In this document: piece after piece, positions 6,454-49,925 of the stretch
Position numbering within the stretch: position 1 is the stretch's first letter
Layout of the letters: the number at the start of each line of letters is the position of its first letter
NCBI RefSeq assembly: GCF_031181385.1
Contig: NZ_JAPSKV010000005.1
Span: 222,612-286,611, forward strand
Direction of reading: 5' to 3'
DNA length: 64,000 bases
Source of the DNA: Fredinandcohnia onubensis
GTDB taxonomy: Bacteria > Bacillota > Bacilli > Bacillales > Bacillaceae_L
Program-made: the position numbers and the translations under genes
The notes under the pieces: model-generated
Told to the model about the DNA's origin: nothing
The model's input: only the letters and a program-made list of their open reading frames with translations
Database searches by the model: none

Positions 6454-6580
6454 ATTGTGCCCTAGTTAGAAATAATTGTGCCCTAACTTTGAATAATTGT
6501 TCCCTAACTGGCTAAGATTGTGCCCTAACTTTGATTTATTGTGACCTAACCCAAGTTAATTGTTTCCTATCCAACTGAAG
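6454..6580. repeat. 21-bp tandem repeat array, about 6 units
   Basis: Unit ATTGTGCCCTAACTTTGAATA; ATTG starts at 6454, 6475, 6496, 6517, 6538, 6559 (exact 21-bp spacing). Confidence 0.88.
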
Positions 6581-15457: not shown

Positions 15458-16240
15458 ATGAAGAATTATCAAAACTCGTATGGTTTTAATCCGAATATGA
15501 GTAATCAACAAGGCTTGGGATATGGACCTGGCGCTGGCTACGGACCGCAAGGAATGCCTATGGAAATGAATATTCCACAAATGGGATACCCAGGAACTGG
15601 CTTTCCACAAGAGGTTCAAGGTAGCTACTCTTTACCTCCCCAACAACACATGATGGATGATGATTGTGGATGTGGTGCTGGTCCCGGCGACGAGGAAGCT
15701 GTAATGCCAGCAGCATTTAATCCATATGGTCCTGGAATGGCACCAAAAATGATGGCTCCACATGGACCGCATGGCCCTGGCTGCACCTGTGGACAGCAGC
15801 ATGGCCCAATGGGCGGACCTGGAATGATGGGCGGTTTTGGCCCTCAGGGACCTAGTGTTGGACCGATGAGCGGTTTTGGACCTCAAGGACCAGGTGCTGG
15901 ACCGATGAGCAGTTTTGGACCTCAAGGAACTGGTGTTGGACCGATGAGCGGTTTTGGACCTCAAGGACCTGGTGTTGGACCGATGAGCGGGTTTGGACCT
16001 CAAGGACCAGGTGTTGGACCAATGAGCGGGTTTGGACCTCAGAGACCTGGGATGGCTCCTGGTGAGATGGATGGATTCGGACCTGGGGGAGCAGGTAATC
16101 CTGGGATGATGTCCCCTCAAGGCCCTGGAATGGCACCAAATATGATGATGCCTCATGGACCACATGGCCCTGGCTGCACCTGTGGACAGCAGCATGGCCC
16201 AATGGGTGGCCCTGGGATGATGGGCGGTTTTGGTAGATAG
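15458..16240 (+). CDS. Gly/Pro/Met/His-rich repeat protein of unknown function
   Basis: RBS agaggtgg before ATG 15458 (ORF track 15449). Six 13-aa repeats (GFGPQGPGVGPMS) flanked by two copies of GPGMAPxMMxPHGPHGPGCTCGQQHGPMGGPGMMGGFG. Confidence 0.82.
   Translation: MKNYQNSYGFNPNMSNQQGLGYGPGAGYGPQGMPMEMNIPQMGYPGTGFPQEVQGSYSLPPQQHMMDDDCGCGAGPGDEEAVMPAAFNPYGPGMAPKMMAPHGPHGPGCTCGQQHGPMGGPGMMGGFGPQGPSVGPMSGFGPQGPGAGPMSSFGPQGTGVGPMSGFGPQGPGVGPMSGFGPQGPGVGPMSGFGPQRPGMAPGEMDGFGPGGAGNPGMMSPQGPGMAPNMMMPHGPHGPGCTCGQQHGPMGGPGMMGGFGR
15833..16054 (+). repeat. 39-bp in-frame tandem repeat inside the Gly/Pro/Met-rich CDS
   Basis: Unit GGTTTTGGACCTCAAGGACCTGGTGTTGGACCGATGAGC; starts at 15833, 15872, 15911, 15950, 15989, 16028. 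Confidence 0.92.
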
Positions 16241-18553: not shown

Positions 18554-18690
18554 TTGTTAATTATATTTCGGTTTCCTATATTTCACAATGAAAATGAATT
18601 GGAATTTTGAGGATATCTGACTGTAAGTGGTCCACAAATCTTCTGGAGCTACATTCTGACTGCCCTGGAGGTATGTTACAGTCCGCTTTT

Positions 18691-19058
18691 AGGAGGTTGG
18701 TGCTACTCCAATGCTTCTGGACTTATATCACTTTCCACTTTTTAGGACGTTGGTGGTACTCCAACCCCTTTGGACTTATATCATTTTCCACCTTTTAGGA
18801 CGTTGGTGGTGCTCCAACCCCTCTGGACTTATATCATTTTCCACCTTTTAGGACGTTGGTGGTGCTCCAACCCCTTTGGACTTATACCACTTTCCGTTTT
18901 TTAGGAGGTTGGTGGCACTCCAATGCCTCTGGACTTATATCACTTTCCAACTTTTTAGGTGGTTGGTGGCACTCCAATGCCTCTGGACTCACATTACTTT
19001 CCATTTTTAGGAAATCGATGATACTCCAAAGCTTTTAAGCTTTCACTTTTGGGTATTT
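18691..19058. repeat. 53-bp intergenic tandem repeat array (7 units, period 52-54)
   Basis: Unit AGGACGTTGGTGGTGCTCCAACCCCTCTGGACTTATATCATTTTCCACCTTTT; AGG starts at 18691, 18744, 18797, 18850, 18903, 18957, 19009. Confidence 0.9.
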
Positions 19059-40951: not shown

Positions 40952-42187
40952 ATGCTCGCAGCAAAAACACAAGCTACAAGTACTGAATACGACGCGAATA
41001 AAACACTTTATGGGATTTTATTTATCATTGGATTTGTCCACATGCTCAATGACTCAATACAAGCGATCATTCCAGCAATGTTTCCAATTTTAGAACGTTC
41101 GATGGGATTAACGTTTACACAGCTTGGATTAATATCCTTCGCGTTACAAATTGTATCTTCAGTTGCTCAACCTGTTGTCGGTTGGTATACAGACAAAAAA
41201 CCAATGCCATTTGCTTTGCCAATTGGATTAACCTCTACCTTTTTTGGAGTAATTGGACTCGCATTTGCACCCAACTTTTTAACGATCATTCTTTCTGTAT
41301 TGTTTATTGGAATAGGTTCAGCTATTTTTCATCCTGAGGGGTCACGTGTAGCCTACATGAGCGCTGGGAACAGACGCGGATTGGCACAATCGATTTATCA
41401 AGTTGGAGGGAATTCAGGGCAAGCCCTTGCACCCGTCATTACCGCTTTAATTCTTGTCCCATTAGGACAATTTGGGGCCATTTGGTTTTCGTTAGTTGCA
41501 GCACTTGCAGTCGGACTACTTATCTATATTGCAAAATGGTACTCAAAAACGTTAAAAACAGTTGAGCTTCAAAAGAAAGTAAAAAAGGTCGTTTCAACTG
41601 TTCCGCGAAACATGAAAGCTGTCAAATTCGCATTAGTTGTTATCGTGCTATTTGTATTTGCTCGCACATGGTACATGTCAAGCATCACAAATTTTTACTC
41701 ATTTTATGTAATTGAAAAATATGGTTACAGCATTTCACAAGCTCAAATTTTTATTTTCTTATTCCTAGCCACAGGGGCATTAGGAACATTCTTTGGAGGA
41801 CCATTAGCTGATAAATTCGGAAAACGGAATGTCATCATTGTTTCCCTTTTAGGTACAGCACCATTAGCACTGATTCTTCCGTTTGTGGGACCACATGTGG
41901 CAATCGTGCTCGTAACGGTTATCGGGTTTATGCTTTTGTCCAGCTTCTCTGTAACTGTTGTATATGCGCAGGAATTGGTGCCTGGTAAAATCGGAATGAT
42001 GTCCGGGTTAATTGTTGGCCTTGCCTTCGGTATGGGGGCTATCGGTGGTGTTGGAATTGGTGCCATCATCGACGCAATCGGTTTAACACCAACCATCATC
42101 ATGATGGGCTTCCTTCCATTGTTGGGATTGTTGGCCTTCCTATTACCAACTGATGAAAAGTTAAATGAATGGAATAATGCAGGTTAA
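40952..42187 (+). CDS. MFS transporter, fosmidomycin-resistance (Fsr)-like
   Basis: HMLNDSIQAIIPAMFPILERSMGLTFTQLGLISFALQIVSSVAQPVVGWYTDKKP; 12-TM MFS. Confidence 0.87.
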   Translation: MLAAKTQATSTEYDANKTLYGILFIIGFVHMLNDSIQAIIPAMFPILERSMGLTFTQLGLISFALQIVSSVAQPVVGWYTDKKPMPFALPIGLTSTFFGVIGLAFAPNFLTIILSVLFIGIGSAIFHPEGSRVAYMSAGNRRGLAQSIYQVGGNSGQALAPVITALILVPLGQFGAIWFSLVAALAVGLLIYIAKWYSKTLKTVELQKKVKKVVSTVPRNMKAVKFALVVIVLFVFARTWYMSSITNFYSFYVIEKYGYSISQAQIFIFLFLATGALGTFFGGPLADKFGKRNVIIVSLLGTAPLALILPFVGPHVAIVLVTVIGFMLLSSFSVTVVYAQELVPGKIGMMSGLIVGLAFGMGAIGGVGIGAIIDAIGLTPTIIMMGFLPLLGLLAFLLPTDEKLNEWNNAG

Positions 42188-42196
42188 TCATTTATA

Positions 42197-42222
42197 AGGA
42201 CGCTTCTGGCGTCCTTTTTTTG
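42197..42222 (+). terminator. intrinsic terminator after MFS gene
   Basis: AAGGACGCttctgGCGTCCTTTTTTT. Confidence 0.8.
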
Positions 42223-42243
42223 TTGCTTGGGGCTTTGGAACAT

Positions 42244-42570
42244 GCGGTATATCATTTATCTGTTATACTGCTTGGTGGTATACCGATTACCTCGTTTGCG
42301 GTATACCATTTATCGTTTTACGACATGATGGTATACCGATTACCCCATTTGCGGTATACCATTTATCGTTTTACGACATGATGGTATACCGATTACCCCA
42401 TTTGCGGTATACCATTTATCGTTTTACGACATGATGGTATACCGATTAGCACGTTTGCGGTATACCATTTATCGTTTTACGACATGGTGATATACCGATT
42501 ACCCCATTTGCGGTATACCATTTATCGTTTCTCGGCTCTTCAATATACTGATTACCTCGCTTACGGTTTT
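42244..42570. repeat. 53-bp intergenic tandem array of hairpin-forming units (about 6 units)
   Basis: Unit GCGGTATACCATTTATCGTTTTACGACATGATGGTATACCGATTACCCCATTT; GCGG starts at 42244, 42298, 42351, 42404, 42457, 42510, with a degenerate copy near 42562. Confidence 0.95.
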
Positions 42571-42653
42571 ATTCCTCTATCCCCCACCCCATTCACCCCT
42601 TTTTTCGCAAAAAAATAAACAATCCATCTTTATGAATTGTTAAGTAAATTATA

Positions 42654-42914
42654 TTATGATTGTGATTTATAGCTGACTTTTTGAAGTGCGAAAAATAACA
42701 TGACTCTCTTTAAAAACTGACGAAAAAGTGAATGGTTTCGTTCTGCTGATTCTGCTCGTTGATAGATATTTATAAGTTCATCAAGTTCTTGACTACATTC
42801 AATTGTTTCATTACTTGTAAACCCCGTACTATTAGCAATAGTGATCATTTCTTCTCTTTTTCTATTAATTTCCTCTAATAGTATCTGTTTGTAATCTATA
42901 CGTCTAGTTTCCAA
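42654..42914 (-). CDS. Spo0E family aspartyl-phosphate phosphatase
   Basis: LLEEINRKREEMITIANSTGFTSNETIECSQELDELINIYQR (SQELD motif). TTG start at 42914 with RBS AAAGGAGTGG preferred over 42935. Confidence 0.83.
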   Translation of the reverse strand: METRRIDYKQILLEEINRKREEMITIANSTGFTSNETIECSQELDELINIYQRAESAERNHSLFRQFLKRVMLFFALQKVSYKSQS

Positions 42915-47278: not shown

Positions 47279-47424
47279 AAAAACCTCTTCATAAGAAGAG
47301 GTTAGCAAACTAACATCTTCTTATCTCTCAGCTTAACGCTGCAAGAATTAGCACCGTGCTTACGATTTTGTAAGTCGGTTGCCGGGCTTCACTGGGCTAG
47401 TCCCTCCGCCTGCTCTTAATAAGA
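47279..47424 (-). ncRNA. SAM-I (S-box) riboswitch with terminator, upstream of mtnW
   Basis: Minus strand: CTTATTAAGAGCAGGCGGAGGGACTAGCCCAGTGAAGCCCGGCAACCGACTTACAAAATCGTAAGCACGGTGCTAATTCTTGCAG...; followed by AACCTCTTCTTATGAAGAGGTTTTTT. Confidence 0.94.
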
Positions 47425-47566
47425 AAATAGATTCTATATAACATGTTGAACCTTCTTAATAGGAGGCTCAACCTTTATTCAATTTTTCCAAAAAGTAATT
47501 CAATTAGGATTATGACAGGAATTTTTTTTCATGTCAAACCTTTTTTTATTTATTAATCAACACGGT

Positions 47567-49713: not shown

Positions 49714-49925
49714 CTCTTATCAAGAGCAGGCAGAGGGACTTGGCCCGATGAAGCCCAGCAACCGACCGTAAAACCATCGTAAGGTGGGGCGCTATTTTTT
49801 CTAGCGCTGGGGAAACCCACAAGGCACGGTGCTAATTCCAACAGGAAGTGTAGAACTTCTTGGCAGATAAGAGGTGCGAAGCCATGACTTCAAGCCTCTT
49901 TCTATGAAAGAGGCTTTTCTGTTTT
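49714..49925 (+). ncRNA. SAM-I (S-box) riboswitch with terminator, upstream of mtnK-mtnA; enlarged P3
   Basis: CTCTTATCAAGAGCAGGCAGAGGGACTTGGCCCGATGAAGCCCAGCAACC...CACGGTGCTAATTCCAACAGG...CAGATAAGAG; terminator AAGCCTCTTtctatgAAAGAGGCTTTTCTGTTTTT. Confidence 0.95.

Follow-up and report, generated by a model that had tools for sequence, protein, structure and literature searches.

A dispersed extragenic family of 53-bp tandem arrays, polar relative to GC skew, in the genus Fredinandcohnia

The tandem array at positions 42244–42563 of the window (the whole 64,000-nucleotide stretch of Fredinandcohnia onubensis DNA that was analysed, contig NZ_JAPSKV010000005.1) is a member of a dispersed extragenic satellite family, hereafter family A, which is spread over the genus and is polar relative to GC skew. 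Two features stand out, a fixed period of 52–53 bp recurring across unrelated sequences and an orientation tied to GC skew, and both were invisible to an earlier sequence-only reading confined to this one window. We infer that the satellite is best understood as a series of phased DNA recognition sites, used either by a protein of the host or in the satellite's own mobilisation, and the arrays hint at an undescribed system of DNA recognition or DNA spreading.

The array is composed of six units of 53–54 bp following each other head to tail on the forward strand (Tandem Repeats Finder: 42243–42530, period 53, 5.4 copies, 92% match, score 476). It occupies the intergenic space between two convergent genes, an MFS transporter gene (PF07690, 40952–42187, + strand) on the left and a Spo0E-like gene (PF09388, 42654–42935, − strand) on the right, and is immediately preceded by the intrinsic terminator of the former, registered by the terminator scan at 42196–42216 (+). 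On the far side of the array, reading by eye reveals a stem resembling a terminator of the Spo0E-like gene, which the scan did not report. This location had been correctly described before, as had the non-coding nature of a repeat whose period of 53 is not divisible by 3, and the GCGG anchors at 42244, 42298, 42351, 42404, 42457 and 42510 with their spacings turned out to be exact on re-reading. CRISPR had also been rightly dismissed: all columns repeat inside an array and unique spacers are absent, while columns 25–31 and 45–49 vary only between arrays and are short. The statement that every unit encodes a perfect 11-bp stem holds for units 2, 3 and 4 (42299–42351, 42352–42404 and 42405–42457, anchored at 42298, 42351 and 42404) but not for the units anchored at 42244, 42457 and 42510, the defects of which the same reading had listed accurately. 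Unit 1 (42245–42298, 54 bp) carries the variant CGGTATATCAT / GTGGTATACCG with two G:U pairs, the stem of unit 5 (42458–42510) has a single A:C mismatch, and the right arm of unit 6 (42511–42563) is decayed (TTCAATATACTG). Within a tandem array there are two registers in which to draw the stem, one with an 18-nt loop TTATCGTTTTACGACATG and the other with a 13-nt loop ATTACCCCATTTG (folding energies −19.0 and −14.3 kcal/mol, respectively), and the unit boundary is therefore a matter of choice.

The source genome (G000; 4.26 Mb in 39 contigs) contains approximately 11 family-A arrays, and those that were read have a period of 53 bp or its multiple. With up to three mismatches allowed, 57 units were found in it, every one of them in a head-to-tail array and none solitary. 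Relatives identified via the MFS protein put this genome beside Fredinandcohnia onubensis and Bacillus timonensis. Of nine genomes belonging to the genus (the Fredinandcohnia / Bacillus timonensis group) eight carry family A, whereas it was found in none of 8 genomes from sister genera of the same family. Plasmid and phage sequences gave no family-A match, two viral contigs having one 19-mer match each. A search of the genome and its relatives and a comparison of copy number between strains had both been proposed on the basis of the single window; the former yielded related arrays in both, and by the latter the counts at the window locus differ, the B. timonensis array having 3.4 copies and the orthologues in two strains of F. 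onubensis 7.4 and 18.5. The sequence-only reading had reserved the name of a neutral, locally expanded minisatellite for the case that related arrays existed nowhere else. They do exist elsewhere in the genome and in the genus, which disfavours this explanation. In four related species the locus is empty and both neighbour genes are intact, the MFS terminator being followed at a short distance by the Spo0E-side region, so that the array is dispensable there. Several more loci are orthologous across G000, G001 and G002, as follows from flank homology and matching neighbour genes, and in the empty-site comparison of three lineage-specific arrays the flanking DNA was largely missing from other genomes. 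The distal unit is decayed alike in the window and in both F. onubensis strains, which suggests that the edge of the array is old, while its interior grows and shrinks. Some arrays show higher-order periods of 106 or 159 bp, which is what unequal exchange is expected to produce. At many loci family A is inherited vertically, with a variable number of copies.

The constraint acting on the unit was estimated from 380 units taken from arrays of the genus, with column information weighted by locus (65 loci). Spacing between successive units is 53 in nearly all steps. Information varies from 1.99 bits per column down to 0.02 bits in column 45, reaching 1.8–2.0 bits in the TAT triplets of the arms and of the loop. 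Conserved blocks CGGTATA, CA.TTATCGTTT..CG, TATACCG and.TTA...TTT alternate with loose columns 25–31 and 45–49; CGGTATA and TATACCG represent inverted half-sites forming the arms, and the TTATCGTTT..CG block lies between them, in the “loop”. Such contrast between columns is not obtainable by mutation alone in intergenic DNA. A neutral VNTR should be free of position-specific constraint, and this is at variance with the range observed over the 65 loci.

The hairpin, which had been considered the central feature of the array, does exist, but across the family it is the less conserved feature. The most conserved columns 13–15 fall inside the loop of the drawn hairpin and stem pair 8–33 is unpaired (non-Watson–Crick) in most family-A units. 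It is thus the sequence, rather than pairing, that is kept, and this argues for recognition at the level of DNA. In stem pairs 1–40 to 7–34 the G:U and A:C changes are about equal in frequency, so neither RNA strand is favoured there. Compensatory change is weak, and real units fold more favourably than column-shuffled ones by only about 2 sd. RNA folding of 42244–42562 gave z = −10.5 against dinucleotide shuffles, a value that any palindromic tandem array would give. Per unit, the + strand of family A is nevertheless more stable as RNA than the − strand, the difference being 1.9 kcal/mol, which would fit a role as RNA. Scanning of the locus revealed no sigma-70-like promoter for the window array, and in the Rfam search of 42100–42760 nothing reached the gathering score, weak microRNA matches being far below it. 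In the entire window this score was passed only by two SAM riboswitches (RF00162), at 47318–47425 (−) and 49714–49873 (+), both away from the array.

Orientation of the arrays relative to local GC skew is highly uneven: 54 of 60 share one orientation, in which the written sequence of the unit falls on the C-rich strand. After merging of loci by flank similarity the ratio was 18 to 3 (n = 21, p = 0.0015), with rRNA-flanked loci over-merged by this procedure. Of the six arrays that disagree, two are members of a nearly self-palindromic subfamily (L093, L121 and L135), for which automatic phasing is unreliable and orientation is ambiguous. Agreement within other families was the same in kind, 6 of 6 arrays in family C and 2/2, 2/2 and 3/3 in three small families. 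GC skew is correlated with gene strand, and these counts therefore demonstrate polarity with the contributions of replication and transcription not separated. Since most arrays are situated behind leading-strand genes, it could be transcription that sets their orientation. Arrays flanked by convergent genes, either of which might determine the orientation, mostly track the skew, a hint that falls short of proof.

For the same 60 arrays, all having at least two units, the genomic context was classified on the basis of simple ORF calls of at least 100 amino acids, by which small genes are missed: 13 arrays are located between convergent genes, 22 between co-directional genes and 25 at contig ends. 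None of the 35 classifiable arrays lies between divergent genes, so divergent promoter regions are avoided as they are by REPs and BIMEs. Many arrays begin shortly 3′ of an intrinsic terminator, L094 and L102 having none before them, and between tandem genes the majority of arrays are antisense to the adjacent genes. Arrays also sit behind ribosomal RNA operons. The source genome has eight 5S genes. Four rrn operons have 5S as their last gene, with no tRNAs behind it, and each of the four precedes a family-A array. Another operon extends into two tRNA genes, and behind these lie two neighbouring 52-bp arrays that differ in sequence from family A and from each other (L192:664–1126, contig C18 of G000). 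Of the remaining 5S genes two lead into tRNA clusters of greater length, and one belongs to a divergent type. Functional grouping of upstream genes was tried and rejected, as SDR dehydrogenases, leucyl aminopeptidase, EF-P, MFS, Dus and a beta-lactamase-like protein share no theme.

The period of 52–53 bp extends beyond family A. Unbiased samples totalling approximately 1.42 Mb were taken from four genomes, of which three belong to the genus and the fourth to a sister genus. They contained 20 non-coding arrays with a period of at least 43 bp, and in 18 of these the period was 51, 52 or 53 bp or a multiple of it (104, 106, 262). The arrays of the surveyed genomes form 18 sequence clusters at 60% identity; some of these are clearly related via ATGAAG/CTTCAT arms and two or three look like coding sequences, so that the number of independent families is lower than 18. 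The sister genus has the same period with sequences of its own. In the genus member G003, on the other hand, no 52–53 bp arrays were registered in the 222 kb sampled, and 20-bp arrays were found there instead. Inverted arms exceed chance expectation in 9 of 18 clusters (mononucleotide shuffles, combined p about 3e-8), and the gap between the arms is frequently as long as 25–27 bp. A universal hairpin had to be rejected: clear inverted arms are missing in families C, L214 and L228, and family C forms no hairpin, which leaves a single mechanism for all 52–53 bp arrays unproven. The period, common despite differing sequences, is thus the shared feature of the arrays, and hairpins are a frequent one.

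Other repeats were encountered in the same material. The window itself carries a second array of period 53 with an unrelated sequence (family B, 18687–19012, 6.2 copies, TTTTAGGACGTTGGTGGTACTCCAACG...), a relative of which at C29:1–550 (L092) is oriented in the same way with respect to GC skew. Another 52-bp array, of the ATGAAG-arm type, is very long: at L236:15853–20000 of G004 it contains 23 copies, and at least 9 more are found 2.4 kb further on. A 21-bp tandem array (ATTGTGCCCTAACTTTGAATA) is located at 6454–6563 of the window, and a 39-bp tandem repeat at 15826–16050 has a period divisible by three and is possibly coding. Arrays of 20–21 and 39–42 bp recur in relatives and in other Bacillaceae genera, and may represent a second class with a two-turn pitch.

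Sequence-specific constraint, polarity and a nearly integral number of helical turns suggest, taken together, a co-aligned stack of DNA-binding protein. In B-DNA a length of 52–53 bp makes about five turns; CGGTATA and TATACCG, the half-sites, are 33 and 20 bp apart, i.e. about three and two turns, although helical phasing is so far a numerical coincidence only. One may tentatively propose that a putative sequence-specific host protein recognises the unit as DNA, an estimate to which its particular host role does not belong. The pitch would then place successive sites on the same face of the helix, and the array would load a co-aligned protein stack just past the end of a transcription unit, where replication would meet it asymmetrically, while the number of copies would drift via unequal exchange or slippage. 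Candidate host roles are organisation of the chromosome or of its supercoils, or a barrier between transcription and replication. Alternatively, the sites may serve the spread of the repeat itself, and the constraint could benefit the element's own propagation instead of the host.

The latter idea is the main rival to recognition by a DNA-binding host protein. According to it, a transposase or recombinase specific for single-stranded DNA, IS200/IS605-like or similar, inserts units where lagging-strand DNA is exposed, in many cases close to terminator hairpins, and local amplification follows, so that both constraint and polarity stem from the mechanism of propagation. An orientation bias relative to GC skew is expected of elements targeting the lagging-strand template, as IS608 and ISDra2 do (PMC6006769). 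Frequent starts right after terminators, the window locus being occupied in some members of the genus and empty in others, and Y1_Tnp genes in 7 of 9 genomes of the genus are of the same tendency. However, solitary units are absent from the source genome, some arrays (L094, L102) have no terminator before them, and the three closest genomes bear no sign of recent dispersal, their shared loci being orthologous. The lineage-specific arrays tested lie in DNA that other genomes lack. Moreover, the Y1_Tnp genes of the source genome are all broken, and G005 contains arrays without any Y1_Tnp match. On balance we consider self-propagation rather unlikely.

A functional RNA and pure neutrality are both less likely than either of these readings. 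In the former case the array would be transcribed and its hairpins would protect 3′ ends, act as antisense to readthrough or serve as a sponge or sRNA, for which the stable hairpins, the better folding of the + strand and the mostly antisense position of arrays between tandem genes speak. We find it improbable in view of the location of the window array behind a terminator without a detectable sigma-70-like promoter, the lack of a credible Rfam match, pair coupling just about 2 sd over column shuffles with pair 8–33 mostly unpaired, and family C being devoid of a hairpin. Expansion by slippage with chance copying around the genome would easily account for copy numbers of about 5, 7 and 18 at one locus, for decayed end units and for higher-order repeats of 106 and 159 bp resembling unequal exchange. 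Yet it leaves aside position-specific conservation, the period common to unrelated sequences, orientation bias, the absence of singletons and avoidance of divergent intergenic regions, which makes it, in our estimation, slightly more improbable still. Recognition of the unit by a protein at the DNA level is thus the reading we prefer.

If the shared pitch and the polarity hold, they provide a simple sign, open to testing, that some undescribed protein or process acts in the spaces 3′ of transcription units, including rRNA operons. It is conceivable, though we regard it as doubtful, that the arrays belong to a general class of non-coding satellites in this group of Bacillaceae, in which the 52–53 bp pitch and the polarity relative to replication are constant and sequence is free to differ between families. 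If true, this constancy would imply an undescribed molecular ruler, be it a machinery of amplification or a DNA-binding protein that forms multimers. Practically, the arrays are usable as variable-number typing loci.

The initial assignment to REP-like or protein-binding arrays has to be divided. Its general part, a dispersed extragenic family with sequence-specific conservation, is retained; membership in REPs is not, since the tag, solitary or alternating units and RAYT all fail. As described previously (PMC2817692, PMC3733652), REPs are dispersed extragenic palindromes that form regularly spaced arrays, with protein binding proposed; they are 20–40 bp long, usually exceed 100 copies, carry a GTAG or CGTC tag and alternate in orientation within BIMEs. 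Family-A arrays are likewise extragenic, palindromic, dispersed, regularly spaced and similarly located, but their units are 53 bp long, all head to tail, tagless, polar relative to GC skew and, in the source genome, never single. Neither GTAG nor CGTC, the terminal tags of REPs (PMC3733652), occurs on either strand of the consensus unit. Single or alternating units in more than 100 copies are replaced in the source genome by 57 units in head-to-tail order, and in place of a cognate RAYT flanked by the repeats this genome has two PF01797 (Y1_Tnp) matches, each with an internal stop codon. By all these criteria family A is not a REP/BIME, and REP-type elements do not explain the arrays of the Bacillus group concerned.

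In the open-access literature searched there was no description of matching repeats in Bacillaceae, which does not demonstrate the absence of any. MIRU-VNTR minisatellites of Mycobacterium tuberculosis form a dispersed family of intergenic tandem units of about 50–60 bp with variable copy number, in a different phylum and with a different sequence; to our knowledge, neither polarity nor any period common to unrelated families has been reported for them. The Bordetella repetitive element (BRE) resembles family A in being a dispersed intergenic tandem repeat, the copy number of which at shared loci varies between species (PMC3110155). It is, however, a GC-rich repeat of Betaproteobacteria reported not to be co-oriented with replication (PMC3110155), and no sequence relation is claimed. 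With the tandem repeats of Borgs, the formation process of which is unknown, our arrays share the abundance of unrelated arrays per genome (PMC9879509). Borg units are perfect, have many lengths and fall into ORFs in about half of the cases (PMC9879509), whereas the arrays of Fredinandcohnia are non-coding, consist of divergent units and are dominated by one period.
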